Positions 1 through 28,288 of a stretch of 51,064 nt of DNA are shown piece after piece. The stretch lies in NCBI GenBank assembly GCA_026417755.1, contig JAOACQ010000110.1:1-51064 (forward strand), written 5' to 3'. The notes below the pieces were generated by a model. That model made no database searches and was not told where the DNA came from. It saw only the letters and a list, made by a program, of their open reading frames with translations. Made by a program: the position numbers and the translations under genes. Origin of the DNA: Brevinematales bacterium (lineage in GTDB: Bacteria; Spirochaetota; Brevinematia; Brevinematales; JAOACQ01). How positions within the stretch are numbered: position 1 is the first letter of the stretch; each line of letters starts with the position of its first letter.

Positions 1-421
1 CTAAAGACACAATAAAAGCCGGTATGCCTTTATAAGCAACCCAATATCCATGCCATAAACCAATAAGAAGCCCAACAAGAATAGTTATAACTATAGCTGG
101 AACGACAGGCATATTAAGTTTTATCATAAGCATTGCTGCAACTGCCCCACAAAATCCAAGAACAGAACCAACAGATAGATCAATGTGACCGGCAACTATT
201 ATCAATGTCATACCTATTGCTAAAATTGCAACAGTTGCACTCTGTATAAAAAGGTTTGATAAATTTCTAGGAGTTAAATAAATAAACTCTCCGTAAACAA
301 CCTTTGTTATTATTGAGAAAATAAGCCAGATAGCAAGTAAAGCTATAATCATAGCATATTGTCTAACATTCATCTTAAATGCCGTGAGTATTATTTCCCT
401 ATAGTTTTTTGTCTTTGACAT
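1..421 (-). CDS. xylH: Sugar ABC transporter permease, XylH-like (partial; C-terminus off the window)
   Basis: Minus-strand translation from ATG at 421 reads MSKTKNYREIILTAFKMNVRQYAMIIALLAIWLIFS...LTPRNLSNLF...GMTLIIVAGHIDLSVGSVLGF; closely resembles the full-length permease at 23429-24565; directly downstream of the ATPase gene. Confidence 0.88.
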   Translation of the reverse strand, partial: MSKTKNYREIILTAFKMNVRQYAMIIALLAIWLIFSIITKVVYGEFIYLTPRNLSNLFIQSATVAILAIGMTLIIVAGHIDLSVGSVLGFCGAVAAMLMIKLNMPVVPAIVITILVGLLIGLWHGYWVAYKGIPAFIVSL

Positions 422-436
422 TTTGTCCTCCATTAA

Positions 437-1948
437 TTAAATATTTGTAGCATAAGCCATTATTTTTTCCTGGGTTGCTTCTTCATGATAAAGTTCTCCT
501 GTTAATTTACCTTCATGCATTACGATTATCCTATCCGACATTCCAAGAATTTCCGGTAATTCAGAAGAGATCATTACAACACCAACACCCTTTGCAACAA
601 GCATATTCATTATATTATAAATTTCATACTTTGCACCGACATCAATCCCTCTCGTTGGTTCATCAAGAAACAAAACCTTTGGTTCAGCCATAAGCCATTT
701 TGCTATTACAACTTTTTGCTGATTACCGCCACTAAGATTCATCGCCTTTTGTTCTATAGAAGGTGTCTTGATTTTCAGTTCATCAACATACCTTAAAGAT
801 CTTAAAATTTCTTCATTTTTATTAATTACCGAATAAGAGGAAATATTCTCAAGATTGGCAAGAGAAACATTTTGTTGAATCGACATATTGAGAACAAGCC
901 CAAATTGTTTTCTATCTTCAGAAAGATAACATATTCCATAACTTATTGCATCTTTTGGAGAGTTGATTTCTATTTTTTTCCCATTCAAATAAATTTCTCC
1001 CTTAACCTTTCTTCCATAAGCCCCAAAGATACTCATCATAAGCTCAGTTCTTCCTGCTCCCATAAGTCCAGCCACACCAAGTATTTCATTTTTTTTCACT
1101 TCAAAAGACACATTGTCACAAACTATCTCTTCGGTTTCAGGATCAACAACTGTCCAATTTTTAACCTCAAGAATAGTTTCAGACGCTTTATGCTTTTGTT
1201 TTGGAAATCGTTCTGTTAATTCTCTACCAACCATATATGAGATTAATCTATCTTCATTAAGTTTCTTTGCTCCCTCGGTTATAACAGTTTTACCATCTCT
1301 TAAGACAGTAATTGTGTCTGCCACTTCAAAAACTTCTTTAAGTCTGTGAGAAATAAATATACAGGTGATACCCTTTGACTTTAATTTCCTTAAAATCTTA
1401 AATAAATTCTCTGATTCTGATTCTGTTAAGGCTGCTGTAGGTTCATCTAAAACAAGTATTTCAGCTTCCTTCAATAAAGCTTTTGCTATTTCAACTAATT
1501 GTTGCTGCCCCACTCCAAGATGTAAAACTTTAACAGTAGGATTTATATCAAGTCCGACCTCTTTCAAGATCTCTTCAGTTTTTTTGAACATCTCATCTTT
1601 CTGTATAACTCCATATTTTGCAATCTCATTTCCTAAAAATATATTTTCTACAACACTTAAACTTTTTACTAACGCTAATTCCTGGTAAATTATAGCTATT
1701 TTTGCCTTTTCACTTTGCTTAATATTATGAAACTGTTGTTCCACACCATTTATCAAAATTTTACCTTCATAAGTCTTGTATGGATAAACCCCACTTAAAA
1801 TCTTCATTAAAGTTGATTTACCGGCTCCATTTTCTCCAACAAGTGCATGTATTTCACCCCTTTTTACCTTAAATGTAACATCGCTCAAAGCCTTTACTCC
1901 CGGAAACTCTTTCGATATTCCTATCATCTCAAGAATATAATCCGCCAT
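437..1948 (-). CDS. xylG: Sugar ABC transporter tandem-NBD ATP-binding protein (XylG/RbsA/MglA type)
   Basis: GENGAGKST Walker A, LGVGQQQ signature, LVLDEPTAAL Walker B, FISHR H-loop; second NBD with GAGRTEL and LSGGNQQ. Start taken at MADYILEMIGISKEF (RBS AGGAG upstream) rather than at the longer ORF start. Confidence 0.93.
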   Translation of the reverse strand: MADYILEMIGISKEFPGVKALSDVTFKVKRGEIHALVGENGAGKSTLMKILSGVYPYKTYEGKILINGVEQQFHNIKQSEKAKIAIIYQELALVKSLSVVENIFLGNEIAKYGVIQKDEMFKKTEEILKEVGLDINPTVKVLHLGVGQQQLVEIAKALLKEAEILVLDEPTAALTESESENLFKILRKLKSKGITCIFISHRLKEVFEVADTITVLRDGKTVITEGAKKLNEDRLISYMVGRELTERFPKQKHKASETILEVKNWTVVDPETEEIVCDNVSFEVKKNEILGVAGLMGAGRTELMMSIFGAYGRKVKGEIYLNGKKIEINSPKDAISYGICYLSEDRKQFGLVLNMSIQQNVSLANLENISSYSVINKNEEILRSLRYVDELKIKTPSIEQKAMNLSGGNQQKVVIAKWLMAEPKVLFLDEPTRGIDVGAKYEIYNIMNMLVAKGVGVVMISSELPEILGMSDRIIVMHEGKLTGELYHEEATQEKIMAYATNI

Positions 1949-1972
1949 TTTTATCTCCTGAAAAAAATTTCT

Positions 1973-2001
1973 GAGTTGCGTTGCTTTTCGCAACGCAACT
2001 C
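1973..2001 (-). repeat. 12-bp perfect-stem hairpin between SBP and ATPase genes
   Basis: GAGTTGCGTTGC-TTTTC-GCAACGCAACTC read directly. Confidence 0.85.
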
Positions 2002-2012
2002 AAAGTCAAAAA

Positions 2013-3026
2013 CTAATTCTTGAATACATCTTCTTTCTTAAGATATCCACTCTTTATCAAAACTTCTTCAAGATTATTCTTATCTACTGCAATAGGAGTA
2101 AGAAGAATTGAAGGAACATCAATCTTATTGTTGTTTACTGTCTGATTTGCTTCGGTTAGAGTCTCTCCTTTTGCCATCTTTATAGCAACTTCTATAGCTT
2201 TAGCACCAAGAAGTCTCGTATCCTTGAAAACTGTCATAGTTTGCTCACCTTTCATAATTCTTATTGCTGCTGCAAGCTCAGCATCCTGACCTGTTATAGG
2301 AACCTTGCCAGCAAGCCCCTGGGCAGCAAGAGCCTGAATACATCCACCAGCTGTTCCATCATTTGGAGCAAGTACAGCATCAATCTTATTCTTATTAGCT
2401 GTTAAAGCCTGTTCCATAAGTTTCTGAGCTTCTGCTGGCTGCCAATCTTTTACCCACTGATCCATAACAATTTTAATCTGCCCCTTGTCTGCAAGAGGTT
2501 TAATATACTTCATCGCACCCTCTCTGAAGAGTTTTGCATTGTTATCAGTAGGTGCACCAGCCAAAACTACATAGTTTCCTTTTGGAACAAGTTTTGTTAT
2601 ATAAGCACCCTGAAGCTCTCCAACTTTAACATTATCAAAAGAAATATAGACATCAACATTACAATCCATTACTAGTCTGTCATAAGAAATAACCTTAATT
2701 CCTTCCTTATGAGCTTTTTCAACTATTGCTGCTGCACTATTTGCATCATGAGGTGCAAGAATAAGAACCTTAATACCCTGTGCTATCAAATTTTCACACT
2801 GTGCAAGCTGTTTTTGAGCATCATTGTCAGAAATCTGAACTTTGAGATCAACACCCAGTTTCTTTGCCTCTTCTTCCATTTTGATCTTATCTCTTACCCA
2901 TCTTTCTTCTCTCTGAGTAGGAAGAGATAAACCTACTTTGATTCCACCTTTTTTCCCACCGCCACAACCAGCGAGGAAAACAAGAGCAACAACTGAAAGT
3001 GATAATACTTTCCAGAAACTTTTCAT
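2013..3026 (-). CDS. xylF: Sugar ABC transporter substrate-binding lipoprotein, XylF-like
   Basis: Lipobox LVFLAGC; ISYDRLV...DVYISFDNVKVGELQGAYI and PITGQDAELAAAIRIMKGEQTMTVFKDT are XylF-like motifs. Confidence 0.9.
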   Translation of the reverse strand: MKSFWKVLSLSVVALVFLAGCGGGKKGGIKVGLSLPTQREERWVRDKIKMEEEAKKLGVDLKVQISDNDAQKQLAQCENLIAQGIKVLILAPHDANSAAAIVEKAHKEGIKVISYDRLVMDCNVDVYISFDNVKVGELQGAYITKLVPKGNYVVLAGAPTDNNAKLFREGAMKYIKPLADKGQIKIVMDQWVKDWQPAEAQKLMEQALTANKNKIDAVLAPNDGTAGGCIQALAAQGLAGKVPITGQDAELAAAIRIMKGEQTMTVFKDTRLLGAKAIEVAIKMAKGETLTEANQTVNNNKIDVPSILLTPIAVDKNNLEEVLIKSGYLKKEDVFKN

Positions 3027-3059
3027 AAAAATCCTCCTAAAGTTTTAGATTTTGATTTG

Positions 3060-3102
3060 ATTTTAATTCAAAATAAAAAACTGTCAATAACACTTATGGG
3101 TG
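3060..3102 (-). promoter_or_regulatory. Candidate regulated promoter of xylF-like operon 1
   Basis: Minus strand: -35 TTGACA (3087-3082), 16-nt spacer, -10 TAAAAT (3065-3060); CAC-N6-GTG dyad (3091-3102) 3 nt upstream of the -35. Confidence 0.6.
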
Positions 3103-3123
3103 ATTTTTAATGAAAAAATATCC

Positions 3124-4098
3124 TCATACTTTCGGGTGAGATTTTCTATCCTTGATAAGATTGGCAAGTTCCATTCTATTTTTTACATTTGTTTTCTGAT
3201 AAATACTATAGATATGGGTTTTAACTGTATTAAGCGAAATAAAAAGTTCTTCACAAATTTTTTTGTTATCATATCCTTTTAAAAGTAAATCTATAATTTC
3301 TTTTTCTCTTTCTGTTATACCAAGATTCTTTAGAATTTCCTTACCATTTTCAATATTACCGAGTTCTCTACCAGTCATTTTTTTAATAAGCAAATCTTCA
3401 TCAGCAACCTGAATATCTTCAGTAGTAATAATTTCTCCATTTCTTAAAACACTTACCCTATCAGAAATATCAAAAATTTCATTTGTTCTATGAGAAATAA
3501 AAATTACAGTTTTATTTTTTTGAAGTTTAAGCTGTCTTATAACCTGTAAAAAACTTTCCCCTTCATTTTCAGACAAATCGGAAGTAATCTCATCAAAAAT
3601 TATAATAATTGGATCATAAATTAAAGCTCTTGCAAGTTTTACTATCTGAACTTCCCAGTTTGAAAGTTCACTTATCTTTTTCCCCGGAAAAATATCAAAC
3701 CCCAGTGAATGAAAAAGCTCTTTTGTTTTTTCAAATGATTTTTTCCAATCAATTATACCTGAAAAGGATATTTCTTTGGCAAGAAATATATTTTCATAAA
3801 CATTTAACTGAGGAATTAAAGAACTATTTTGGTATACAACCCCTATCCCAGATTTTTCACTATCCCTCTGTGAATAAAATTTTACAGGTTTACCATCAAG
3901 AAGAATATTACCTTTATAACTATAAGCAGAATAAAAACCACCTAATATCTTGACAAGAGTTGATTTGCCAGAATCTTTCTCACCCATTATAGAGTGTATT
4001 TCTCCTTTTTTGATAGACAAACTAAGATTTTTAAGAATTGGCTTTTTACCAATATTAAATGAAATCTTTTTTAACTCCAGAATATTTGGAGTTTTCAT
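3124..4098 (-). CDS. Single NBD (XylG N-half-like) fused to C-terminal LuxR/GerE HTH; putative transcriptional regulator
   Basis: GEKDSGKSTL Walker A, VVYQNSSL Q-loop, degraded signature LSNWEVQ, IIIIFDEITSDLSE Walker B, FISHR H-loop, MTGREL, then GITEREKEIIDLLLKGYDNKKICEELFISLNTVKTHIYSIYQKTNVKNRMELANLI = LuxR HTH. Confidence 0.92.
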   Translation of the reverse strand: MKTPNILELKKISFNIGKKPILKNLSLSIKKGEIHSIMGEKDSGKSTLVKILGGFYSAYSYKGNILLDGKPVKFYSQRDSEKSGIGVVYQNSSLIPQLNVYENIFLAKEISFSGIIDWKKSFEKTKELFHSLGFDIFPGKKISELSNWEVQIVKLARALIYDPIIIIFDEITSDLSENEGESFLQVIRQLKLQKNKTVIFISHRTNEIFDISDRVSVLRNGEIITTEDIQVADEDLLIKKMTGRELGNIENGKEILKNLGITEREKEIIDLLLKGYDNKKICEELFISLNTVKTHIYSIYQKTNVKNRMELANLIKDRKSHPKV

Positions 4099-4107
4099 AG
4101 AAACTCC

Positions 4108-4689
4108 TCACTCTAGCATTTTCCTTTGAATTCTGGCTGCCTGTTCTGGATCCATCTTTGAAATTAAATATGGAACTATTGACTGTCTACCTGCTTTTTT
4201 GGCTCTTTCATCCATTCTTTTGAAAAGATCTATAATCATTAGATCTTCTTGTTTCTCTATTATTTTTACTGCATCAAGTGGTGGCATATTTTCAATATAT
4301 TCAGCTAAAGAATCAAGTCTTTTTGAATAAGATTCTTTCTCTGATTGAGCTCTTTCAAATTCGCTTATCATATTTTTTATATTTTCTTTTTCTTGAGCTA
4401 TATTTTCTTTTTCAATGTTTATATCTCTCAACTCTTTTTCAATCTTCTTTTTTTCCTCTTCAAGCCCTTTAATCTTTTCTTCAAGAACCTGCCATTTTTT
4501 TTCAAGTTCTACTTTTTCAAGTAAATAAGGATCCTCAATTCTAGGAGTATATTGTTCTTTTAACAATGGCATTTCTGCAAATATCATTCTATAGTCAAGT
4601 ATTTGAAGAAAATCCAGCAAATATAACGCAAGTGTTATAACACCTAAATTAATGAGAAGTAAGAATACTATTCTTTTATTTCTACTCAT
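4108..4689 (-). CDS. flbB: FlbB-like periplasmic flagellar collar protein / MotE-like coiled coil
   Basis: N-terminal TM, long Lys/Glu coiled coil, C-terminus MPPLDAVKIIEKQEDLMIIDLFKRMDERAKKAGRQSIVPYLISKMDPEQAARIQRKM (MgtE-N-like/FlbB); next to fliJ-like gene. Confidence 0.7.
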   Translation of the reverse strand: MSRNKRIVFLLLINLGVITLALYLLDFLQILDYRMIFAEMPLLKEQYTPRIEDPYLLEKVELEKKWQVLEEKIKGLEEEKKKIEKELRDINIEKENIAQEKENIKNMISEFERAQSEKESYSKRLDSLAEYIENMPPLDAVKIIEKQEDLMIIDLFKRMDERAKKAGRQSIVPYLISKMDPEQAARIQRKMLE

Positions 4690-4700
4690 ATATAACCAGC

Positions 4701-5405
4701 TTATTTAAAATTTTTATATAAGTTATAATATTTTATAACATTATCAACATAATCTTTTGTCTCTTCATAGTCCGGGATACCATTGGCGTTGTCAACGGCG
4801 TTAGGCCCAGCATTATAAGCGGCGAGAGCAAGATTGAGATCGTTATTATACCTATTAAGCAAAAATTTTAAATATCTAGTCCCCCCAAAAATATTCTCTC
4901 TTATATCAAATGGATTTTCAACACCTAAAATCTCTGCAGTCTTTGGCATAAGTTGCATAAGCCCCATCGCACCTTTTGGAGAAACAGCAAATTTATTAAA
5001 ACCCGATTCTTGTTTTATCATAGCTTTTATCAGAGACCTATCAATTCCGTATTTTTCTGAAGCTGAATCAATTACATTATCTATATTTTCTTCTTTGTAT
5101 GATTTCTTTTGAATTTCATAAATTGAATTTAGTAATTCTTTATTCTCTTCTTTATTCCCTATCAATAAATTTAATTTTTTTAAGGAATCATTTTCATTAA
5201 GACCCGGCAAACTACCATTTTCTTGCAACACTTCTTTCAATATTTCACTAAACTTTTTTTCACCCGCTTTTTCTTCCTTTTGATCGAATTTGTCAATTTG
5301 GTTAATCTTTGAAAGGCTTTTATAACCACTGAGAGCTTTTATCTCAGAGATACGATTTTCTATATCTCTTATTCTTGATACGACATTTGATATTGCTTCT
5401 ATCAT
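4701..5405 (-). CDS. Lytic transglycosylase (SLT domain)
   Basis: [42 protein letters not shown]...[17 protein letters not shown] motifs. Confidence 0.9.
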
Positions 5406-5420
5406 AAGATCCCCTCTTTT

Positions 5421-5882
5421 TTAATTTTCGGAATTTAAGCTATCTGCTTTATTTTTCATATAGGTATTTTTACCAATTTCATCTATAATTTTTTGTTCTT
5501 CTTTTCCTGTCTCTTCTAGGTACTGTTTATATTTTTTTTCTTTAATAAGTTCAACTATCTTTTTTTCCTTTCTCAACTGGTTATAAATCTCTATTTCTCT
5601 CTCCATTTTCTTTCTTTTTTCTTCTATAACTGGCTCAAGATTTTTTATTGCTTTTTCTGCATTCGTACTTATATAATCTAACATTCTTAAGTTTTCAATC
5701 GAAAAACTTTCTCCCTTAAGGATAGAATTTTTATAATTCTTTACATTATTTTTGATATTCTCTACTTTATTAACCTCAACTTGATATTCACCACTTGCTT
5801 TTGCAAGTTTTACTTTCTGTAATTCTTCTTTTTTTTCTCTTATCTCAAGGAGCTTTTGAAGATTAAATTGAAACTTTTTCAT
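5421..5882 (-). CDS. fliJ: Flagellar export protein FliJ-like
   Basis: MKKFQFNLQKLLEIREKKEELQKVKLAKASGEY... coiled coil characteristic of FliJ; flagellar context. Confidence 0.75.
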   Translation of the reverse strand: MKKFQFNLQKLLEIREKKEELQKVKLAKASGEYQVEVNKVENIKNNVKNYKNSILKGESFSIENLRMLDYISTNAEKAIKNLEPVIEEKRKKMEREIEIYNQLRKEKKIVELIKEKKYKQYLEETGKEEQKIIDEIGKNTYMKNKADSLNSEN

Positions 5883-6003
5883 ATATCTTTATATACTAAC
5901 TGAAAAAAGAAATAAAATCAAGATTTTTATTATTTGTTTAAAAATTGGAAATATAAATTATTTTAAATTATAATTTTAATATTAAATTTTTGAAGGAGGA
6001 AAT

Positions 6004-7272
6004 ATGGCAATATCAAAAAAGACAGTCAGAGATATTGATATTAAAGGTAAAAGAATTATAATGAGAGTTGATTTTAACGTTCCTATGAAAGATGGAGTTG
6101 TTCAGGATGATACAAGGATAAAAGCAGCATTACCTACTATTAACTATATTCTTGAACAGGGTGCAAAAAGCCTTGTTCTTATGTCCCATCTTGGAGATCC
6201 AAAAAAAGATATGCAAAAGGCAAAGGAAAAAGCAGAGAAAGAAGGTAAACCATTTGATGAACAAAAGTATATAGAAGGCAAACACAAAATGCAACCTGTG
6301 GCAAAATATCTTGAAAAGTTACTCGGAAAACCTGTTGCCTTTGCTCCCGATTGTTTAAGTGAAGAAACAAAAAAAATAGTAGATAGCCTTCCTGAAGGTG
6401 GAATTTTGATGCTTGAAAATACTAGATTTCATAAAGAAGAGACTTCAAAAGAAGCATCCGAAAGAGAAAAAATGGCAAAAGTTCTTGCAACTTATGGCGA
6501 TATTTTTGTTAACGATGCCTTTGGAACCGCTCACAGGGCACATGCTTCAACCGAAACTATAGCACACTTCCTTCCTGCTGTAGCTGGCTTCTTAATGGAA
6601 AAAGAGCTTGAATACTTAGAAGAAAAAGTTTTAAAAAATCCCGCAAGACCATTTGTAGCAATAGTTGGTGGTGCAAAAGTTTCTTCTAAAATAGGAGTAC
6701 TTGAAAGTTTATTAAACAAAGTTGATAAACTTATAATTGGTGGAGGAATGGCTTACACATTCCTTAAAGCCAAAGGGCTCTCAGTAGGATCATCACTCAT
6801 CGAAGAAGATATGATAGAAGTAGCAAGAGAAATATTAAAGAAATCTCATGAAAAGAAAAATTACATCTATCTTCCTATTGATCATATAGTTACAAAAGAA
6901 TTTTCTCCCGATGCAGAAGAAAAACATGTAGCAAGAGGAAACATAGAAGAAGGTTGGATGGGAATGGATATAGGACCTCTCACAGTTCAAAATTTTATAA
7001 GCATCATAAAAGAAGCAAAAACAGTCTTCTGGAACGGTCCTCTTGGAGTTTATGAATTTGAAAAATTTGCTAAAGGTACAACAGAAATAGCAAAAGCCCT
7101 TGCAAGCCTTCCTGATTGCACCACAGTAATAGGTGGAGGAGATGCTGTATCTGCAGTTAACAAAGCCGGTGTAGCTGATAAGATGAGCCATATATCTACA
7201 GGTGGTGGAGCCTCTTTGGAACTAATTGAGGGTAAGGTACTACCCGGTGTAGCTGCATTACTAGATAAATAA
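6004..7272 (+). CDS. pgk: Phosphoglycerate kinase
   Basis: RVDFNVPMKDG, LMSHLGDPK, LENTRFHKEE, FVNDAFGTAHRAHAST, VAIVGGAKVSSKIGVL, GGGDAVSAV; RBS AGGAGGA. Confidence 0.98.
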   Translation: MAISKKTVRDIDIKGKRIIMRVDFNVPMKDGVVQDDTRIKAALPTINYILEQGAKSLVLMSHLGDPKKDMQKAKEKAEKEGKPFDEQKYIEGKHKMQPVAKYLEKLLGKPVAFAPDCLSEETKKIVDSLPEGGILMLENTRFHKEETSKEASEREKMAKVLATYGDIFVNDAFGTAHRAHASTETIAHFLPAVAGFLMEKELEYLEEKVLKNPARPFVAIVGGAKVSSKIGVLESLLNKVDKLIIGGGMAYTFLKAKGLSVGSSLIEEDMIEVAREILKKSHEKKNYIYLPIDHIVTKEFSPDAEEKHVARGNIEEGWMGMDIGPLTVQNFISIIKEAKTVFWNGPLGVYEFEKFAKGTTEIAKALASLPDCTTVIGGGDAVSAVNKAGVADKMSHISTGGGASLELIEGKVLPGVAALLDK

Positions 7273-7289
7273 TTTGTTGGAGTTTTAAA

Positions 7290-8045
7290 ATGTCAAGAAA
7301 ACCATTTTTAGCCGGAAACTGGAAAATGTACAAAATTTCCAGTGAAGCAGAAAGTTTTGCAAAAGAATTTAAATCTTTAGTTTCAGATGTGAAAGACAGA
7401 GATATTTTGATATGTGCCTCTTTCACCCTCCTTCCTGTATTAGCAAAAGAATTTAATGGAACAAATATTATGCTTGGTGCACAAAATATGTATTTTGAAA
7501 AAGAAGGTGCTTTTACCGGTGAAGTATCACCATTACAACTGATTGATGCTGGAGCAAAATATGTCATACTTGGACATTCAGAAAGAAGACATATCTTTGG
7601 TGAAACCGACGAATTAATCAATAAAAAAGTAAAAGCCGCCTTACAGTATAATTTGCTTCCCATTCTCTGTGTTGGTGAACTACTTGAAGAGAGAGAGGCT
7701 GGAAAAACAGAGGCCGTGGTTAAAACTCAGGTTGTAGAAGGATTCAAAGGGCTCTCAAAAGATGAAGCATTAAAAGTTACAATAGCTTATGAACCGGTCT
7801 GGGCAATAGGAACGGGTAAAACAGCTACACCAGAAGATGCAGATAGTGTCCATAGTTTCATCAGAAAGGTTCTTTCAGAAATATACGACAAAGATACATC
7901 AGAAAAGATAAGAATACAGTATGGTGGTTCTGTAAAACCTGAAAATATTGATTCTCTGATGGCAAAACCCAATATTGATGGTGCACTCGTTGGTGGAGCA
8001 AGTTTGAAAGCGGATTCTTTTACAAGAATTGTAAAGTTTAACTAA
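7290..8045 (+). CDS. tpiA: Triosephosphate isomerase
   Basis: AGNWKMYK, ILGHSERR, IAYEPVWAIGTGKTATPE, IQYGGSVKPEN, ALVGGASL. Confidence 0.98.
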   Translation: MSRKPFLAGNWKMYKISSEAESFAKEFKSLVSDVKDRDILICASFTLLPVLAKEFNGTNIMLGAQNMYFEKEGAFTGEVSPLQLIDAGAKYVILGHSERRHIFGETDELINKKVKAALQYNLLPILCVGELLEEREAGKTEAVVKTQVVEGFKGLSKDEALKVTIAYEPVWAIGTGKTATPEDADSVHSFIRKVLSEIYDKDTSEKIRIQYGGSVKPENIDSLMAKPNIDGALVGGASLKADSFTRIVKFN

Positions 8046-8054
8046 ATAGATAGA

Positions 8055-8162
8055 GTTGCCCAAAATATATATTTTTATCTGATTGACTTCTCGTTTAAAT
8101 AATAACAGGGTGTTTATTTTTGTTGCATAAAGCAAAGAAAGTGAATTGTTTTTTTGGGCAAC
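8055..8162. other. 108-nt element bounded by an 11-bp inverted repeat (possible structured RNA or 3'UTR)
   Basis: GTTGCCCAAAA (8055-8065) and TTTTGGGCAAC (8152-8162), with a small internal AACA-GGG-TGTT hairpin; intergenic after tpiA. Confidence 0.4.
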
Positions 8163-8183
8163 CCTTTTGTAACCAAAAAACAC

Positions 8184-8211
8184 TTGATTTTTTATTTCTT
8201 AATGTTATAAT
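8184..8211 (+). promoter_or_regulatory. Sigma70-type promoter for the small ORF at 8256
   Basis: TTGATT-N16-TATAAT. Confidence 0.55.
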
Positions 8212-8255
8212 ATTAATTGTAAATAAAGGGTTTTTTAAGGAGGAAGGTGCTGTTA

Positions 8256-8447
8256 ATGTCACCTAAAATTTTTGATATTGAAGCTCTTGTTTCTGAAGTT
8301 GTCGAAGAGATAATGAGGTATAAGTGGCTTGAAAGCGAAAAAGCAGGTAAAGATATTGGCGAAAATGAAGCTGCATCAAGATGGATTTCTGAACATTACG
8401 ATTTATGGTTTAATGCTACTAAAGATAAATTTATAAAAGATATGTAA
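8256..8447 (+). CDS. Small conserved-looking protein, function unknown
   Basis: AAGGAGG upstream; MSPKIFDIEALVSEVVEEIMRYKWLESEKAGKDIGENEAASRWISEHYDLW; promoter upstream. Confidence 0.7.
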   Translation: MSPKIFDIEALVSEVVEEIMRYKWLESEKAGKDIGENEAASRWISEHYDLWFNATKDKFIKDM

Positions 8448-8487
8448 ACATTTCTCTTTCTCATCTTTCCTTTTGCAAGGATTATTT

Positions 8488-11189: not shown

Positions 11190-11192
11190 TTT

Positions 11193-11945: not shown

Positions 11946-11946
11946 A

Positions 11947-15703: not shown

Positions 15704-15721
15704 GGATTAATCCTCACTCTG
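15696..15721. terminator. 26-bp perfect palindrome between convergent genes (candidate bidirectional terminator)
   Basis: CAGAGTGAGGATTAATCCTCACTCTG, perfectly self-complementary; weak T-tracts. Confidence 0.6.
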
Positions 15722-17811: not shown

Positions 17812-17926
17812 AATTTTAACTCAAAAAATTAAATCAAAAACTTTTATTAAAAAAATCCCTAAAAATTTGGACTTCAACTCAAATTCTTGCCTTCTTGAAA
17901 AAAATATTTTATAATAATTTATATAC

Positions 17927-17999
17927 GGGGATGTAGCTCAGTTGGGAGAGCACTACAATGGCATTGTAGGGGTCGTGGGTTCAAGTCCCATCATCTCCA
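17927..17999 (+). tRNA. tRNA-Ala (anticodon GGC)
   Basis: Full cloverleaf GGGGATGTAGCTCAGTTGGGAGAGCACTACAATGGCATTGTAGGGGTCGTGGGTTCAAGTCCCATCATCTCCA; G3:U70 identity pair; upstream TTGCCT-N17-TATAAT. Confidence 0.97.
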
Positions 18000-18004
18000 T
18001 ATTT

Positions 18005-18529: not shown

Positions 18530-18772
18530 TTTCTCATCTTCATCATTATTTTATACTTAACTTTGTCAAAAGTCAAATTTTTAATACAAAATTTTATATT
18601 ACTTAAAGTTTAATTAACATTTATTACTTAAGGAAAATTGTGAATTTTTTAGCTGGTATTGTTTTATTTATTAACTCGTTTATTTTATTGTAAATAAAAA
18701 GTAAATAAAAATTTGATTATTTCAGTTATTTATTTTATCATTTTTAGATAACTATTTATCGGAGGATAATGT

Positions 18773-20284: not shown

Positions 20285-20289
20285 CAAAA

Positions 20290-20312
20290 AGCCCTGTAGA
20301 ATCTACAGGGCT
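20290..20312. terminator. Bidirectional rho-independent terminator
   Basis: AGCCCTGTAG-AAT-CTACAGGGCT flanked by AAAA/TTTT between convergent genes. Confidence 0.92.
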
Positions 20313-20315
20313 TTT

Positions 20316-21353
20316 CTATTCTATTTTATAAAAACTTCGTGGATTAAATGCCTCTCTTATTCCCTCACCTACAAAAGCAATCAAAAGCAAAATCAAAAAC
20401 AAGAACAAGGCTGGAAAAATGGAAAGCCAGTAAGAGGAAAGGTTCGCCATTCCTTGTCTTAAAAGTTCCCCAATGCTTGGTGTTGGAGCTGGCAACCCAA
20501 ATCCAAGAAAATCAAGAGCTGAAAGTGAAAAAATAGCCCCTATAAGATCAAAAGGAAGAAAAGTAATCACTGGAGTTAATGCATTGGGAAGAATGTGATT
20601 AAACATAATTTTAAAATCTGAAACCCCAATTGCTCTTGCAGATTCAACAAAAGGCATTTCTTTAATCTTGTAAAATTCAGCTCTTATATAGTAAGAAATA
20701 CCTATCCAGTCAAAAAAAGAAAAAACAATTATAAGCATAAAAATACTATTTCCAATTGAACTTCCCAGAATAATAACAATATAAAGAAAAGGAAGAGCAG
20801 AAATAATCTCTATAATCCTCTGAAATGTAAGATCAAACCACTTTCCTATATATCCCTGTAAAGCTCCTATAAAAACACCAACAGAAATACTAACAAAAGT
20901 AATAAGCAAAGCAAAACTAAAACTTATTCTGAAGCCATATATTATTCGTGTCAGAATATCACGACCTCTGTCATCCGTTCCTAAAAGATTTCTAAAAGTT
21001 GGTGGAGAAGGAGGGTTTGATGGTAAATTTTCTATAGATTCATATGGAGAATAAGGAATAGGTGGAAAAATTGCAAAATTCTTTTTATTCTCTAAAAATT
21101 TTTCACTCTTAACAAATTTCTTATAATCAATTATATCAGTAGCTGAATACCCAAAGTGATCCCCCGAATAAAAAGTAAAAATCGGAAAATACAATTTACC
21201 ATTGTATTTCAAAATAACTGGCTTATCATTAGCAATAAAATCAGCAAACAAAGAAAAAAAATAGAGCCCCAGTATTAAAATTAAGGAATAATAAGCACGT
21301 TTCTGACTTTTAAACTTTTCAATTCTTCTTAATGTTAATGGTGAAAATTTCAT
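20316..21353 (-). CDS. Peptide-type ABC transporter permease (YejE/OppC family)
   Basis: N-terminal TM, long periplasmic insertion with YSPYESIENLPSNPPSPPTFRNLLGTDDRGRDILTRIIYG, then BPD_transp_1 region. Confidence 0.92.
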   Translation of the reverse strand: MKFSPLTLRRIEKFKSQKRAYYSLILILGLYFFSLFADFIANDKPVILKYNGKLYFPIFTFYSGDHFGYSATDIIDYKKFVKSEKFLENKKNFAIFPPIPYSPYESIENLPSNPPSPPTFRNLLGTDDRGRDILTRIIYGFRISFSFALLITFVSISVGVFIGALQGYIGKWFDLTFQRIIEIISALPFLYIVIILGSSIGNSIFMLIIVFSFFDWIGISYYIRAEFYKIKEMPFVESARAIGVSDFKIMFNHILPNALTPVITFLPFDLIGAIFSLSALDFLGFGLPAPTPSIGELLRQGMANLSSYWLSIFPALFLFLILLLIAFVGEGIREAFNPRSFYKIE

Positions 21354-21358
21354 ATATA

Positions 21359-22378
21359 TCACCTGAATCTTATTCTTGGATCGACAATTACAAGTGCAAT
21401 ATCAGAAAGTATTCTACCAACCAGAACAAGTAAACTCGAAATAAAGGTCAATCCTAAAGCAACAGGATAATCCCTATTAACAATAGCTTCATAACCAAGC
21501 AACCCCATTCCATCAATTGTAAAGATAGTCTCAATTAATACTGAGCCAGATAAAATCACAGTTAAAATCATACCAATATTTGTAGCAACAGGAATAAGAG
21601 CATTTCTCAAAGCATGTTTAAAGACAGCCTCTTTAAAACTCAATCCTTTCGCAAGTGCTGTTTTAATATAATCTTTTTGCAACTCTTCAAGCATAGAATT
21701 TTTCATTAAAAGTGTGAGAGTAGCAAAATTACCTATTAAATAACAGAATACAGGAAGTACCATATGATAAATTACATCAAGCACTTTTCCAAAGAAACTT
21801 AAATCCTCAAAATTATCAGAAATTATACCGCTTATAGGAAACAGATTAAGAAAACTCCCTCCACCAAAAAGTACAATAAGGATTACAGCCATTACAAAAC
21901 CAGGAATAGAATAACCTGCAAATATTAAAAAACTTGTATAATGATCAAATGGTTTATTATTCTCTATTGCCTTTTTTATACCTAAAGGAATACAAATCAT
22001 ATAGCTTAATAAAAACCCAGTTAGCCCAAACATCAAAGAGATAGGAATTCTTGAAACAATTATAGTTAAAACTGGCTTCTCATAAATATAAGAATAGCCA
22101 AAATCACCTCTTATTATTTTAGAAAGCCAATCAAAATATCTTATTATCAAAGGTTTATCAAATCCATAATATTGTTTTATTTTTTCAATTTCTTCTGAAT
22201 AAATCTGAGATTGTGGTTGTGTTGTAGAACCCTCTTTCAACTGGGATTGCTTAAGTTTGTAGATAGCCTGTTCTATAGGCCCACCGGGGACCGCATTCAT
22301 TATAAGAAAACAAACGAGAGTAATACCAAACAAAGTCGGTAAGATCAATAACAATCTTTTGATAATATAAGATTTCAT
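21359..22378 (-). CDS. Peptide-type ABC transporter permease (YejB/OppB family)
   Basis: MKSYIIKRLLLILPTLFGITLVCFLIMNAVPGGPIEQ...; DPRIRF C-terminus. Confidence 0.92.
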   Translation of the reverse strand: MKSYIIKRLLLILPTLFGITLVCFLIMNAVPGGPIEQAIYKLKQSQLKEGSTTQPQSQIYSEEIEKIKQYYGFDKPLIIRYFDWLSKIIRGDFGYSYIYEKPVLTIIVSRIPISLMFGLTGFLLSYMICIPLGIKKAIENNKPFDHYTSFLIFAGYSIPGFVMAVILIVLFGGGSFLNLFPISGIISDNFEDLSFFGKVLDVIYHMVLPVFCYLIGNFATLTLLMKNSMLEELQKDYIKTALAKGLSFKEAVFKHALRNALIPVATNIGMILTVILSGSVLIETIFTIDGMGLLGYEAIVNRDYPVALGLTFISSLLVLVGRILSDIALVIVDPRIRFR

Positions 22379-22388
22379 AAAGTATCCA

Positions 22389-22871
22389 CTATAAGATTCC
22401 TTCTATTTTTAGTAATTTTTCTTTTATATTTAATCCTGCACTAAAGCCACCTATACTATTTTTTTGTAAAAAATTCTTCGGTAAAACCCTGTGGCACGGT
22501 ATAATAATCGGAAATGGATTTAATCCAAGAATTCTTCCAACAGCTCTCTTCAAATTTTTATTGCCCAATTTTTCTGCTAAACCTTCATAACTTATAAAGT
22601 TACCATAAGTTATTTTAATCAAAGCCCTATAAACTTTCAACTGGAAATCACTAAAAACACTAAAATCCAATAACTTAAAATCTACATCAAAATTAACTAT
22701 TTTACCACCAAGATAATCGAAAAATCTTTCAAAAAATTTATTGTAAGAAGTTTTTTCCGGAAATGAAATTTTATCACTATTTGAAAGGTTAATTTTAGTA
22801 AAAACATTATTTTCGATGCAAAAAGAAACCCCTATCCCATTATTGGAAAGAAAGAAATTTTCTTTTTGCAT
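22389..22871 (-). CDS. ogt: Methylated-DNA--protein-cysteine methyltransferase
   Basis: FPIIIPCHRVL active site; YGNFISYEGLAEKLGNKNLKRAVGRILGLNP. Confidence 0.93.
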   Translation of the reverse strand: MQKENFFLSNNGIGVSFCIENNVFTKINLSNSDKISFPEKTSYNKFFERFFDYLGGKIVNFDVDFKLLDFSVFSDFQLKVYRALIKITYGNFISYEGLAEKLGNKNLKRAVGRILGLNPFPIIIPCHRVLPKNFLQKNSIGGFSAGLNIKEKLLKIEGIL

Positions 22872-22910
22872 AAAAAAACCTTTTCAAAAATTTTTTATCC
22901 AATAAAAAAA

Positions 22911-22998
22911 CGGAAGAGGAGGGATTCGAACCCTCGGTACGCTTTTGGCGTACACGTGCCTTCCAAGCACGCTCCTTAAACCACTCGGACACTCTTCC
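22911..22998 (-). tRNA. tRNA-Ser (anticodon GGA)
   Basis: Minus strand GGAAGAGTGTCCGAGTGGTTTAAGGAGCGTGCTTGGAAGGCACGTGTACGCCAAAAGCGTACCGAGGGTTCGAATCCCTCCTCTTCCG; long variable arm; loop TTGGAAG. Confidence 0.97.
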
Positions 22999-23049
22999 AG
23001 CTAAAAAACTATAATATTATAATTTTTTTTTACCTTTCTGTCAAAATAT

Positions 23050-23304
23050 CTAATCTTCCATTATAACATATTGGACCTTTACCCCTCTTATAGCCTCCAG
23101 TTTCTCCTTCATTTTCTTATGTTCATTTTGATCACCAATAAGCTGCAAAATCATTAACCCCTTATCACTACAAATATTCTCATTTGCTTCATGCAAACCA
23201 AGCCTTGTTTTAACATAACAACCAAACTCCGTAAGAACTTTCTGAACTTCTACAGCCTCATTAAGCCTATTAGTTAATAAAACAATAAGTAATTGATATT
23301 TCAT
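23050..23304 (-). CDS. Small ACT-like protein, TM1266-type putative [FeFe]-hydrogenase-system regulator family
   Basis: MKYQLLIVLLTNRLNEAVEVQKVLTEFGCYVKTRLGLHEANENICSDKGLMILQLIGDQNEHKKMKEKLEAIRGVKVQYV resembles TM1266-like sequences. Confidence 0.6.
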   Translation of the reverse strand: MKYQLLIVLLTNRLNEAVEVQKVLTEFGCYVKTRLGLHEANENICSDKGLMILQLIGDQNEHKKMKEKLEAIRGVKVQYVIMED

Positions 23305-23367
23305 AAAGTTCCTCCCTAATTTTCAATATTATACAAAATAAGTATAAATTAGTCAATCAGAATTTAT

Positions 23368-23409
23368 TAAAAAAGCTGAGTTCTCAATTATGAAAAACCC
23401 AGCTTTTTT
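23368..23409 (-). terminator. Rho-independent terminator of xyl-like operon 2
   Basis: AAAAAAGCTG...CAGCTTTTTT inverted repeat downstream of the permease gene. Confidence 0.8.
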
Positions 23410-23428
23410 ACTATAAAAAAGGAAAAAT

Positions 23429-24565
23429 TTAATCTTTTTGTTTGGTTTGAAAATCTATAAGAACTGCAAACATTAAGATTAAGCCTTTAACAATGTATTG
23501 CCAGAAAGTAGGAGTATTAAGTAATACCATTCCATTATCAAGACTTGCCATAATTAAAGCCCCAACAATCGCTCCTGTAACATTACCAACACCACCCATT
23601 AAACTTGTCCCGCCTATTACACATGCTGCTATAACATCAAGCTCAAAACCAGTTCCAGCAGATGTAGTTGCTCCATTAAGCCTTGCAGATAAAACAACCC
23701 CTCCAATCCCGCAAAGTAGGCCCATAAGCACAAAAGCTATTAATGTATTAAGTTTAATATTTATTCCTGAATACTTTGCTGCCTCAGGATTACCTCCTAT
23801 TGCATACAAATATCTTCCAAATCTCGTATGTTCACTTATAACCTTAAAAATTACAACAAGAGTAAACAGTAATAAAACTGGAACAGGTATCCCCTCATAA
23901 CTATTCATAATAAAAACAGCCAATATAATAAGTCCAATTATCAGCAAATTAATAATGAGATCATAAAACAAAGGTTTAGTTTCAAAACCATAATTTATTC
24001 TATCCAATCTCTTCTTTATCCTTATAAAAAGAATAAAAATAACTACTATCATAGCAAGTATCCACCCAATAGTCGTGGGTAAAAAAGCCTGCCCAATCTG
24101 GACAAATTCATGGCTTAATGGAGAGATTGTTCTACCTTCTGTAATTCCAAGAATTACACCTCTGAATATCATCATCCCACCTAAAGTTACAACAAAAGCT
24201 GGAACTTTAAGATAACAAACCCAATCCCCCTGCCATAAACCAATCAATAATCCAACAAGTATAGCAACGGAAACAGCCCCAATTGTTGACCACCCCATCT
24301 TAGCCTGTAAGATTGCAGCTATGGCACCGGTCAAACCAACAACAGATCCAATCGACAAATCTATATGCCCGGAAACTATAATCAAAACCATCCCAATTGA
24401 AAGAATCCCAGTTATAGACATTTGTCTCGCTAAATTTGAAAGATTTCTTGGAGTGAGAAAGGTATCCTGATTAAGCAAAAAGAAAAGAAGCCATATAGCT
24501 ATTAAAGCAAAAACCATAACATATGATTTTAAATTTACTTTCACTCTTCTTTTTTCTACTGACAT
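23429..24565 (-). CDS. xylH: Sugar ABC transporter permease, XylH-like
   Basis: LTPRNLSNLARQMSITGILSIGMVLIIVSGHIDLSIGSVVGLTGA...AAKYSGINIKLNTLIAFVLMGLLCGIGGVV...GGTSLMGGVG; TAATG overlap with upstream ATPase gene. Confidence 0.94.
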   Translation of the reverse strand: MSVEKRRVKVNLKSYVMVFALIAIWLLFFLLNQDTFLTPRNLSNLARQMSITGILSIGMVLIIVSGHIDLSIGSVVGLTGAIAAILQAKMGWSTIGAVSVAILVGLLIGLWQGDWVCYLKVPAFVVTLGGMMIFRGVILGITEGRTISPLSHEFVQIGQAFLPTTIGWILAMIVVIFILFIRIKKRLDRINYGFETKPLFYDLIINLLIIGLIILAVFIMNSYEGIPVPVLLLFTLVVIFKVISEHTRFGRYLYAIGGNPEAAKYSGINIKLNTLIAFVLMGLLCGIGGVVLSARLNGATTSAGTGFELDVIAACVIGGTSLMGGVGNVTGAIVGALIMASLDNGMVLLNTPTFWQYIVKGLILMFAVLIDFQTKQKD

Positions 24566-26079
24566 TATTTTCCTCCTGTTGCATAATACATTATTTCTTC
24601 CTGTGTTACATTACCACCTTGAAGTTCTCCTGTAATTTTACCCTCTGACATAACCAAAATTCTATCACTCATACCTATTATTTCGGGTAACTCTGAAGAA
24701 ATCATTACAATACAAACTCCCTTTCTGACAAGTTCATTCATTATCTTATATATTTCTACTTTTGCTCCTACATCTATACCTCTAGTAGGTTCATCAAGAA
24801 AAAGTATCTTTGGCTCTGTTAAAAGCCATTTTGCAAGAACAACTTTTTGTTGATTCCCGCCACTTAAATTATTAACCAAGGTTTCAAGAGAAGGTGTTTT
24901 TATTCTTAATTCCTCAACAAATTTTTTACCATATTTTATTTCCTCATTTTCATTAATTAAAACTTTTGAAATCTTCTCCATAGCTGAAAGTGTAATATTT
25001 TTCATCACATTCATTTTCAAAATGAGTCCATACAACTTCCTATCCTCCGTAACGAGTCCAATACCATATTTTATGGCATCAGCAGGTGAATTAATCTCTA
25101 TCTTTTTACCTTTAAGATAAATATCGCCTTTTTTTCGGCCAGGATAAGCTCCAAAGATACTGGTTACAAGTTCTGTTCTTCCAGATCCAACAAGCCCTGC
25201 AATTCCAAGAATTTCTCCTTCTCTTACTTCAAAAGTAACATTATCAAGCAATAATTCTCCATCCTTTGTAGGATCTTCAACACAAAAATTTTTAACCTGA
25301 AGGACAACATTCTTTGGAATATGTTTTTCACGTGGATATAATTCCTTAAGTTCTCTTCCTACCATCATCGAAATAATTTTACTTTCATTCAAATTCTTTA
25401 CTTCATCAGTTCCTATAGTTTTTCCATCTCTTAAAACAGTAACCCTATCTGCAATTTCAAAAATTTCTTTTAATCTATGAGAAATATAAATACAGGTTAC
25501 TCCTTCTTTTCTTAATGAACGTAAAATTTCCATAAGATTCTCTGTTTCATTCTCAGATAATGAAGCTGTTGGCTCATCTAAGATAAGAATTTGTGCATTT
25601 TTACTCAATGCTTTCACAATTTCAATAAGTTGTTGTTGCCCGACTCCAAGTTCTTTAACTTTTCTATTTACATTTACATCAAGTTTTACTCTCTTTAAAA
25701 GTTCGGTACTTGTATAGCAAATTTTATCCCAATCAACAAAAGATTTCATCTTCAATGGTTCATTCCCAAGAAATATATTTTCAGCAATACTCAATTCTTT
25801 TATAAGAGTTAATTCCTGATATATTACTGAAATTCCTGCTTCCTCAGAATCTCGAACATTAAGAAATTTTTTTTCTTTTCCATTTATAAAAATTTGACCT
25901 TCATAAGAAGAACATGGATAAACTCCACTTAAAATCTTAATTAAAGTTGATTTACCAGCCCCATTTTCTCCAACAAGTGCATGAATTTCTCCTTCACAAA
26001 CTTTAAAACAAACATTATCAAGTGCTCTCACCCCCGGAAAATCTTTTGTAATACCTTCTGCTTCAAGAATATAATTCAT
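24565..26079 (-). CDS. xylG: Sugar ABC transporter tandem-NBD ATP-binding protein, XylG-like
   Basis: GENGAGKSTLIKILSGVYP, LGVGQQQLIEIVKAL, ILILDEPTASL, YISHRLKE; second NBD GSGRTEL, LSGGNQQKVVLAKWL. Confidence 0.94.
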   Translation of the reverse strand: MNYILEAEGITKDFPGVRALDNVCFKVCEGEIHALVGENGAGKSTLIKILSGVYPCSSYEGQIFINGKEKKFLNVRDSEEAGISVIYQELTLIKELSIAENIFLGNEPLKMKSFVDWDKICYTSTELLKRVKLDVNVNRKVKELGVGQQQLIEIVKALSKNAQILILDEPTASLSENETENLMEILRSLRKEGVTCIYISHRLKEIFEIADRVTVLRDGKTIGTDEVKNLNESKIISMMVGRELKELYPREKHIPKNVVLQVKNFCVEDPTKDGELLLDNVTFEVREGEILGIAGLVGSGRTELVTSIFGAYPGRKKGDIYLKGKKIEINSPADAIKYGIGLVTEDRKLYGLILKMNVMKNITLSAMEKISKVLINENEEIKYGKKFVEELRIKTPSLETLVNNLSGGNQQKVVLAKWLLTEPKILFLDEPTRGIDVGAKVEIYKIMNELVRKGVCIVMISSELPEIIGMSDRILVMSEGKITGELQGGNVTQEEIMYYATGGK

Positions 26080-26103
26080 AATAACCTCTTAGTAATTTAT
26101 TGA

Positions 26104-26134
26104 TCCAGAGGGTAGCTCAATAGCTACCCCTGGA
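26104..26134 (-). repeat. Stable hairpin between SBP and ATPase genes of operon 2
   Basis: TCCAG(A)GGGTAGCT-CAAT-AGCTACCC-C-TGGA: 13 base pairs with one bulge. Confidence 0.85.
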
Positions 26135-26192
26135 CCGAGACTACCCAAAAGCGTTAGCCTCAATAGCACCTCCATTCAAAAGATCCCATCAT

Positions 26193-27185
26193 TTATTTTC
26201 CGTAAATATCTTTTTCAGAATGGAACCCATCGGCAACTATAACAGATTTCATATTAGCCTTTGTAACCTGAATAGGAACAAGCATTATAGAAGGAACATC
26301 GATTTTGCCATTGTTTACTTTTGTATTAACTTCACTTGCTGGTTTCTTATTAGCCAATTCTAAAGCTGCTTTTGCTGCTGCAGTTGCAAGTTTCTTGATA
26401 GGTTTATAAATAGTAACCGCCTGTGTCCCAGCAACTACTCTCTTACATGCTGCAAGCTCTGCATCCTGACCGGTAACCAATACCTTACCAGCAAGTTTCT
26501 GCTCGGCAAGAGCCTGAACAGCGCCACCAGCAGTCCCATCATTAGCACATAAGATTACATCTACCTTATTTTTATGCTGGGTTAAACCATTTTCCACATG
26601 TTTTAATGCTTTTTCTGGTGACCATCCATCACACCACTGCTCAAATACAACCTTTGCATCAGGATATTTTTTCAACACGTTTTCAAAACCCTGTCTTACA
26701 AGAAATGCATTATTATCAGTAGGAGACCCATTAATTATAAAATAATTGCCTTTTGGTTTTAATTTGCAAACATATTCTGCCATGAGTTCTCCAACCTTAA
26801 CACTATCAAAAGAAACATAGAGATCAAGATCGCAGTTCTTAATCATTCTGTCATAGGCAATAACCGGAATTTTTGCTTTCTGAGCAGATTTTACAATGGA
26901 ACTTGCTGTTTCACCATTCTGAGCAATTACTACAAGAACATTAACTCCCTTAGTGATAAGATTTTCACACTGGCTATTCTGAAGATTTTCATCACCATTA
27001 GCTGACACTACTATAACTTCAGCACCAGCTTTTTCTGCCTCAGCCACAAAAAGATCTCTGTCCACCTTCCATCTTTCTTCTGCAAGAGTAGCAAAAGAAA
27101 GACCAATCTTTACCTTTGAGAAACCAGTTACAGAAACAAAGAATAAAAGAAATAAACTAAACACTACCTTCAAAAACTTCTCCAT
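26193..27185 (-). CDS. xylF: Sugar ABC transporter substrate-binding protein, XylF-like (no lipobox)
   Basis: VIAYDRMIKNCDLDLYVSFDSVKVGELMAEYV, LVTGQDAELAACKRVVAGTQAVTIYKPIKKLA; signal peptide. Confidence 0.92.
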   Translation of the reverse strand: MEKFLKVVFSLFLLFFVSVTGFSKVKIGLSFATLAEERWKVDRDLFVAEAEKAGAEVIVVSANGDENLQNSQCENLITKGVNVLVVIAQNGETASSIVKSAQKAKIPVIAYDRMIKNCDLDLYVSFDSVKVGELMAEYVCKLKPKGNYFIINGSPTDNNAFLVRQGFENVLKKYPDAKVVFEQWCDGWSPEKALKHVENGLTQHKNKVDVILCANDGTAGGAVQALAEQKLAGKVLVTGQDAELAACKRVVAGTQAVTIYKPIKKLATAAAKAALELANKKPASEVNTKVNNGKIDVPSIMLVPIQVTKANMKSVIVADGFHSEKDIYGK

Positions 27186-27252
27186 CTTAAACCTCCTTTA
27201 AAAATGGAATTTATTTTTATTTTATAATTATTTTTAAATACATTTTAAATAA

Positions 27253-27320
27253 ATTTTAAATATTAAGATTATTTTGTCAATCACCTTAGAGAATGAATTT
27301 TTTCACCCATTAAGGTGATT
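27253..27320 (-). promoter_or_regulatory. Candidate regulated promoter and operator of xylF-like operon 2
   Basis: Minus: TTGACA (27280-27275)-N16-TAAAAT (27258-27253); 10-bp inverted repeat AATCACCTTA (27279-27288)/TAAGGTGATT (27311-27320) and nested TCACC-N6-GGTGA (27303-27318). Confidence 0.65.
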
Positions 27321-27322
27321 TT

Positions 27323-28288
27323 TTAATTTTCTTTAAATTTTAACATAAGTTTGAGAAGTTCAATACGATTGTTCACACCAGTTTTTTGATAAATATTGCT
27401 GATATGGGTTTTAATGGTATTCACTGAAATGCATAACTTGGAGCAAATTTCTCTGTTATTCTTACCATTAAGTAGCATTATTAATATATCTTTCTCTCTT
27501 TTTGAAATATTGAATGATTCACAAAAGCTATCTATAAAAATATTCTTTGTAAGCTCTTTACCAAGCATCATAGACATTTCCGCATCATCATCATAATAAT
27601 TTTTGGCTTCCTCACAAAAAACCGTTTTGCCATCCCTTACAAATGTTATCATATCAGTTATGTTAAGAATCTCTTTAAGTTTATGCCCAACATAGACAAA
27701 AGTCAAATTATAACTTTTTCTTATCTTTTTCAACAACTCAAAAAATTCATCCATCTCTCTTTCAGACAAAACGGCTATCAAATCCTCTAAAATCCATATA
27801 TTAAGATTTTTAACAATTGCTCTTGCCATTTCGATTTTGTGTTGATCAAAGGTAGTTAAATTTTCTAATTTTAAATTAGGGTTTATATTAAGGCCTACTT
27901 CCTCAAGTGCTTTTGAAGTAAAGGAAATACATTTTTTCTTATCTATAAAACCAGCCTTAGTAAATTCACTCCCTAAAAAGACATTTTCCCATATTGACAT
28001 TTCTTTAACAAATTTTGGTTTTTGATGAATAACAGATATACCTGCCCTTTCACTATCTTTGATAGTATTAAAAGTCTCTTTATTCCCATTGATAAATATA
28101 TCACCTATATAATTACTCGAAGATATTTCACCAATAAGAATCTTGATTATGGCTTCTATGCTTGATTCATTATCTGCTATAACTGTATGAAATTCATTCT
28201 CTTTTACACAAAGGTTGAAATTATTAAGTACTCTTATATTGTTATTAAGTTTGGTAATATCTTTCATCTCAAGTAGATAGGTTTTCAT
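27323..28288 (-). CDS. Pseudo-ATPase NBD (XylG N-half-like) fused to C-terminal LuxR/GerE HTH; putative transcriptional regulator
   Basis: Collinear with XylG N-half (ERAGISVIHQKPKFVKEMSIWENVFLGSE...VGLNINPNLKLENLT...DMITFVRDGKTV...MMLGKEL) but Walker A degraded to ADNESSIEA; C-term FNISKREKDILIMLLNGKNNREICSKLCISVNTIKTHISNIYQKTGVNNRIELLKLML = LuxR HTH. Start at MKTYLLEMKDITKL preferred. Confidence 0.92.
   Translation of the reverse strand: MKTYLLEMKDITKLNNNIRVLNNFNLCVKENEFHTVIADNESSIEAIIKILIGEISSSNYIGDIFINGNKETFNTIKDSERAGISVIHQKPKFVKEMSIWENVFLGSEFTKAGFIDKKKCISFTSKALEEVGLNINPNLKLENLTTFDQHKIEMARAIVKNLNIWILEDLIAVLSEREMDEFFELLKKIRKSYNLTFVYVGHKLKEILNITDMITFVRDGKTVFCEEAKNYYDDDAEMSMMLGKELTKNIFIDSFCESFNISKREKDILIMLLNGKNNREICSKLCISVNTIKTHISNIYQKTGVNNRIELLKLMLKFKEN

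Follow-up and report, generated by a model that had tools for sequence, protein, structure and literature searches.

The window analysed here is a whole contig (51,064 nt) of a Brevinematales bacterium (Spirochaetota), whose draft genome comprises 1.87 Mb and is 87% complete. Two cassettes can be observed on its minus strand, and both have the gene order regulator-xylF-xylG-xylH (Table 1). This arrangement had been claimed in a first-pass annotation of the DNA and is borne out by the gene coordinates, Pfam and NCBIfam. Both tandem ATPases pass the NCBIfam xylose-ATPase cut-off. No additional NBD-HTH fusion or tandem XylG is present in the remainder of the 87%-complete draft. As the two regulators are just ~32% identical, the cassettes do not represent a recent duplication.

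Regulator 1 starts 9 bp beyond a row of flagellar-type genes (window positions 4108-5882; FliJ family, SLT transglycosylase, MotE-like coiled coil), and this short distance means that it may be co-transcribed with them. Unlike regulator 1, regulator 2 has a promoter of its own. Inspection of the same genome also revealed LuxR-HTH proteins preceded by an apparent LacI/SBP-like sugar-binding domain (L001 and L004), which look like another sugar-sensing part joined to a LuxR-HTH output.

Table 1 Features of the two window cassettes and of related fusion loci in other Spirochaetota. Positions without a locus prefix refer to the window.
Feature	Position	Strand	Basis
XylH 1, 5' part of gene; start at 421, rest cut by contig end	1..421	-	
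XylG 1, tandem ABC ATPase	437..1948	-	Pfam; NCBIfam
XylF-like SBP 1	2013..3026	-	nearest E. coli XylF 3m9w, E 6e-96
xylF1 promoter, TTGACA-N16-TAAAAT	3060..3087	-	
Proximal operator 1 (predicted), TCACCCATAAGTGTTA, ends at -35 box	3088..3103	-	
Distal operator 1 (predicted), TCACCCGAAAGTATGA, overlaps regulator 1 stop codon	3124..3139	-	
ABC-LuxR regulator 1 (324 aa)	3124..4098	-	Pfam; AF2
XylH 2, permease (BPD_transp_2)	23429..24565	-	Pfam
XylG 2, tandem ABC ATPase	24565..26079	-	Pfam; NCBIfam
XylF-like SBP 2	26193..27185	-	nearest E. coli XylF 3m9w, E 4e-101
xylF2 promoter, TTGACA-N16-TAAAAT	27253..27280	-	
Proximal operator 2 (predicted), TCATTCTCTAAGGTGA, ends at -35 box	27281..27296	-	
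Distal operator 2 (predicted), TCACCTTAATGGGTGA	27303..27318	-	
ABC-LuxR regulator 2 (321 aa, ATG at 28288)	27323..28288	-	Pfam; AF2
Sigma70-like promoter of regulator 2, TTGACT-N17-TATACT	28320..28348	-	inspection
NBD-PAS-histidine kinase and sigma54 response regulator loci	L228, L229, L230, L231, L261-L280		
NBD-SpoIIE fusions	L185:15797-17701; L194:9297-11249; L232:6076-6966		

The regulators, which we refer to as ABC-LuxR, are proteins of ~320 residues consisting of a XylG-type NBD1 (residues ~1-245), a short flexible linker and a C-terminal GerE HTH. In regulator 1, the HTH spans residues ~262-313 and linker residues 246-250 have pLDDT values below 50 in the AF2 model. Both domains exceed their Pfam cut-offs in regulators 1 and 2, with 93.4 and 31.9 bits for ABC_tran (PF00005; cut-off 25) and 61.6 and 55.4 bits for GerE (PF00196; cut-off 23.5), and the HTH helices are present in both models. 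The NBD is confidently predicted (pLDDT 93 and 92), helped by alignments that took in XylG rows. FbpC and MalK are among the importer NBDs that the regulator 1 model matches in a Foldseek search (E 1e-20). The best NCBIfam model for both proteins is that of the xylose ATPase, of which only the first 248 positions are covered; against the XylG equivalog NF010069, they reach 216 and 195 bits, far below the cut-off of 699. Only NBD1 is present, and the HTH takes the place of the NBD2 of XylG.

The ATP-site motifs of the regulator NBD are decayed. Relative to XylG NBD1, retention is 0.43 for Walker A, 0.48 for the Q-loop triplet, 0.38 for the signature, 0.55 for Walker B and 0.53 for the H-loop segment. 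The signature is lost in all regulators, at odds with an active ABC transport ATPase. A GxxxxGKS-like Walker A is kept in 5/7 intact regulators and lost in the other two (regulator 2 and that of genome G028), while the H-loop His is missing in two. Regulator 2 lacks the Walker A, signature and Walker B motifs altogether. The domain is thus, as judged from its sequence, a degenerate XylG NBD1. The confident AF2 fold, the Foldseek matches to importer NBDs and the motif decay together describe a predicted folded pseudo-ATPase or weak ATPase.

One region escapes this decay. Between the Q-loop and the signature, the AENIFLGxE stretch is retained at 0.97 and the following GxIDW stretch at 0.90. In importers of known structure, the region from the Q-loop to the signature borders the coupling-helix groove. 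Docking on XylH would be in keeping with this retained post-Q-loop surface, although the AENIFLGxE segment may be kept for folding alone. A search of the RbsABC coupling-helix literature yielded nothing relevant.

A fusion profile search of 393 Spirochaetota genomes separated seven intact fusions (387-471 bits) from all other proteins (at most 288 bits). An eighth gene, in G002 (L189:4057-5011), is split over two frames by a frameshift and is either decayed or an assembly error, which brings the set to eight ABC-LuxR genes in 7/393 genomes. Among 84,980 species searched with one HTH peptide pattern, NBD-plus-HTH relatives (at least 32% identity) occur only in Spirochaetota. All eight genes lie on a contig with xylFGH, within ~8 kb of it. 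Four are directly upstream (both window genes, G034 and G042), three genomes of one genus have the gene four genes away in convergent orientation, and the G028 gene is ~4.5 kb upstream. The expectation that ABC-LuxR genes lie near xylFGH-type operons is borne out in all seven genomes that carry them, which excludes a location mostly away from transporters.

Two further genes can be observed at these loci. In G028, the regulator and SBP genes are separated by a GH95 glycoside hydrolase gene (L188:6388-9225), which suggests fucose or another released sugar as the substrate. A conserved protein of 181-182 residues is encoded convergently with the regulator at L186:13014-13562, L187:6298-6843 and L189:5014-5559. 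It has no match in Pfam or NCBIfam; we take it to resemble D-lyxose isomerase, which would be a hint at the sugar.

Operons without the fusion are organised differently. G202, G252, G129 and G381 have some of the closest xylF genes without a fusion, and inspection of the sequence upstream of their xylFGH genes identified a periplasmic sensor, a LytS-like kinase, a YesN/AraC-like response regulator and a second XylF-like SBP. This XylFII-LytS-YesN set is absent at the ABC-LuxR loci inspected. The proposal that ABC-LuxR replaces XylFII-LytS-YesN control is therefore supported at the level of gene neighbourhoods. As cited in PMC10384115, Li et al. 2017 describe control of xylFGH by XylFII-LytS-YesN, with the outside sugar sensed via a second SBP and a membrane histidine kinase. 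Going by that citation, the two systems share their target operon, whereas ABC-LuxR has neither an SBP nor a membrane part.

The regulator-linked operons share a candidate operator. A 16-bp palindrome, TCAYMC-N4-GKRTGA, is present in at least two copies at the xylF promoter of 7/8 of them, and upstream of xylF in 0/27 regulator-less operons with a detectable SBP; the flanks of some of these 27 cover just 120-200 bp above the gene, and wider flanks for eight again show no motif upstream of xylF. The co-occurrence is significant (Fisher 1e-6; 4e-5 once close relatives are collapsed). In four operons, the proximal palindrome exactly abuts the -35 hexamer, with its centre near -43.5, the classical site of LuxR-type class II activators. 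In the G005 genus, the -35 box is separated from the clear upstream palindromes by 35 and 65-66 bp, and a degenerate copy occupies the proximal register. Within the 51-kb window, three matches of at least 11/12 positions were found against 0.6 expected, all in the two xylF promoters. Exact matches occur at four places in the genome of the window, of which two are the xylF promoters and two lie inside genes. The G028 operon is the exception among the linked operons, with no palindrome found, and the HTH segment of its regulator reads IAANTVKAHL instead of the IS-x-x-T-V/I-KTHI of the other six.

The shared operator supports the predicted action of ABC-LuxR on the neighbouring xylF promoter, which we regard as very likely. 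Position and co-occurrence make it highly probable that a regulator dimer binds the tandem palindromes and activates xylF, and ABC-LuxR thus very probably switches on the neighbouring importer genes.

The same type of input domain is found in other signalling proteins. In 16/393 Spirochaetota genomes, 25 proteins combine a XylG-type NBD with PAS-HisKA-HATPase and are encoded adjacent to a sigma54 response regulator. These loci lie beside a CUT2 operon in 23/24 cases inspected. A near-consensus sigma54 -24/-12 promoter is present at 19/23 kinase-linked CUT2 operons, compared to 1.6 expected; under a common 1500-bp rule, the numbers are 14/23 and 2/46 for operons with and without such a kinase (p 5e-7). 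Three NBD-SpoIIE phosphatase fusions were found, all directly downstream of xylH, the third of which (L232; G285) is cut by the contig end ahead of its SpoIIE part. In G042, a single cluster holds both a LuxR and a SpoIIE fusion. Some long ABC ORFs of G055 resembled fusions but were rejected, as they are ordinary ABC exporters.

The NBDs of these classes differ in their ATP sites. In the kinase class, Walker A and Walker B are kept and the signature is lost, and the retention of AENIFLGxE is not seen. In the SpoIIE class, the ATP-site motifs are wholly lost, including Walker A in 3/3 proteins. Because the same XylG-type NBD is joined to LuxR, kinase and SpoIIE parts, it can be read as an input for three outputs. 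An NBD of transporter type thus recurs as the input module of signalling proteins whose genes lie beside those of CUT2 importers. The notion of an ATPase-mimicking regulator put forward in the first-pass annotation holds for the LuxR class; its restriction to LuxR proteins does not, since the same NBD also serves kinase and phosphatase outputs.

The regulators do not descend from their present neighbours. Each regulator branches outside the XylG next to it, and an origin by recent local duplication of that XylG was rejected for this reason. Core LuxR and SpoIIE NBDs group, on long branches, beside XylG-type NBD1s rather than with their neighbours. All kinase-class NBDs fall into one clade; for the LuxR class, the AU test does not reject a single origin (p 0.51 and 0.64). 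The suggestion that each regulator mimics the XylG beside which it is encoded stands in that the domain is a linked, XylG-type NBD1, and fails in that the tree does not derive it from that neighbour.

These observations can be combined in a model in which ABC-LuxR would be a dedicated one-component activator of the neighbouring xylFGH operon. Its LuxR HTH would bind the tandem palindromes just upstream of the xylF -35 box. The input domain would be a first NBD of XylG that no longer acts as a transport ATPase, having kept its fold and the segment by the groove that contacts the transporter. As its signal, the importer's own state is the likeliest: by docking on the transporter, through the XylH coupling helices and/or XylG, the NBD would make the amount of regulator free to activate depend on whether the transporter is working or absent. 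DNA binding, activation rather than repression, the docking partner and the direction of signalling are parts of this model that we infer. Taken whole, an importer-state-sensing activator of xylFGH is the explanation towards which we lean, by a little more than an even chance. That the NBD reads the importer and not a free ligand appears about equally credible, on the basis of neighbourhood specificity, reuse of the module and loss of Walker A in some members. Docking on XylH or XylG, which the first-pass annotation cast as competition for XylH or heterodimerisation with XylG under the control of transport state, is plausible. Several observations count against the model: the AENIFLGxE retention is missing from the kinase class, the G028 regulator lies 4.5 kb off and no operator was found at its operon, and in three genomes the regulator is four genes away and convergent.

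The docking partner could be XylG in particular, with the regulator NBD pairing with a XylG NBD and free or assembled XylG as the signal. An intact regulator Walker A could then face the canonical LSGGN signature of XylG NBD2, which is kept while the regulator's own signature is lost. Across 23 loci of the kinase class, the distances between NBDs track those between XylG proteins even after the kinase part is accounted for (partial r 0.31, p 0.0002), compared to a partial r of 0.04 for the kinase part and XylG given the NBD. Covariation of the NBD with XylH is not significant at these loci (0.11, p 0.10), and none is seen with the SBP. For the kinase class only, covariation thus favours XylG over XylH as the partner. 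However, XylG is homologous to the NBD, and shared bias or gene conversion could explain the signal. In the LuxR class, NBD and HTH follow XylG alike (r 0.60 and 0.56, for a small sample of n=7), so that co-diversification carries no information there. The two NBDs of XylG are, moreover, already paired within one chain, and we consider this form of the model somewhat unlikely.

Alternatively, the NBD could respond to a small molecule of the cytosol (the ATP/ADP ratio or a sugar metabolite, for example) without any contact with the transporter. The Walker A of most intact regulators agrees with this, and the kinase-class motif pattern is that expected of ATP-binding, non-hydrolysing domains. 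On the other hand, neither regulator 2, the G028 regulator nor any SpoIIE-class NBD has a Walker A left, and a general energy sensor has no need to be beside CUT2 operons. ATP occupancy, which had been named as part of the signal, cannot serve as such in regulator 2, where Walker A is lost. We regard a cytosolic ligand as an unlikely input. It is more doubtful still that the NBD is a relic for dimerisation only, with constitutive or signal-free expression: its ATP-site motifs decay at different places in different members, as a relic would allow, but the fold and the post-Q-loop segment are kept in proteins just ~32% identical, and three output classes have kept the XylG-type NBD, in nearly all cases next to CUT2 genes. 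Least likely of all, the palindrome could serve another regulator and ABC-LuxR act elsewhere, for which the motif-free G028 operon and the non-adjacent genes of three genomes speak, against the presence of the palindrome in 7/8 regulator-linked and 0/27 other promoters, the deviating G028 HTH and the intragenic position of the other exact matches.

The importer-state model has precedents. In E. coli, the ABC ATPase MalK restrains the LuxR-type activator MalT (PMC10427625). By analogy, a sugar importer ATPase module would here govern a GerE-HTH activator of transporter genes, with the transport state as the proposed signal. In that system, the ATPase is functional and MalT is a STAND protein of its own; in ABC-LuxR, the HTH is joined to an NBD without a transport role, and STAND and TPR parts are absent. 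A MalK-MalT-like logic in which one chain unites an ATPase-like sensor with the activator is our leading reading. In BceAB-BceS flux sensing, an ABC transporter is likewise a co-sensor for the regulator of its own genes (PMC7038271, PMC7828314), but the kinase BceS, a membrane protein, has no NBD, and BceAB belongs to the resistance systems and not to the CUT2 importers. XylG/RbsA-type CUT2 ATPases are the source of the input domain, from which ABC-LuxR differs in having NBD1 only and decayed catalytic motifs. With NarL/LuxR one-component regulators it shares the C-terminal GerE HTH and a 16-bp palindrome abutting the -35 box; their inputs are REC, autoinducer-binding, LacI-like or membrane domains, in contrast to an ABC NBD. 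No description of NBD-HTH, NBD-kinase or NBD-SpoIIE fusions turned up in the literature searched, though this does not prove that none exists. ABC-LuxR would work like known transporter-coupled regulation, while its architecture and the three-output module appear to be new.

Extended to the three classes, the model would describe a general spirochaete input module: a retired CUT2 (XylG/RbsA-type) NBD that acts as a mock ATPase subunit in sugar importers and passes transporter state to LuxR, PAS-HisKA plus sigma54 response regulator, and SpoIIE outputs. We offer this generalisation tentatively, at slightly less than an even chance. Few worked cases exist of cells reading importer activity rather than sugar concentration, namely MalK-MalT and the Bce systems. 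An evolutionary clue is given by the transporter's own ATPase domain, which has been reused at the input end of three types of signalling protein beside the transporter genes. The predicted operator and the sigma54 promoters make the design directly testable. Should the NBD indeed dock on the importer, a single polypeptide would couple transport state to gene expression and would represent a compact, portable sensor design.
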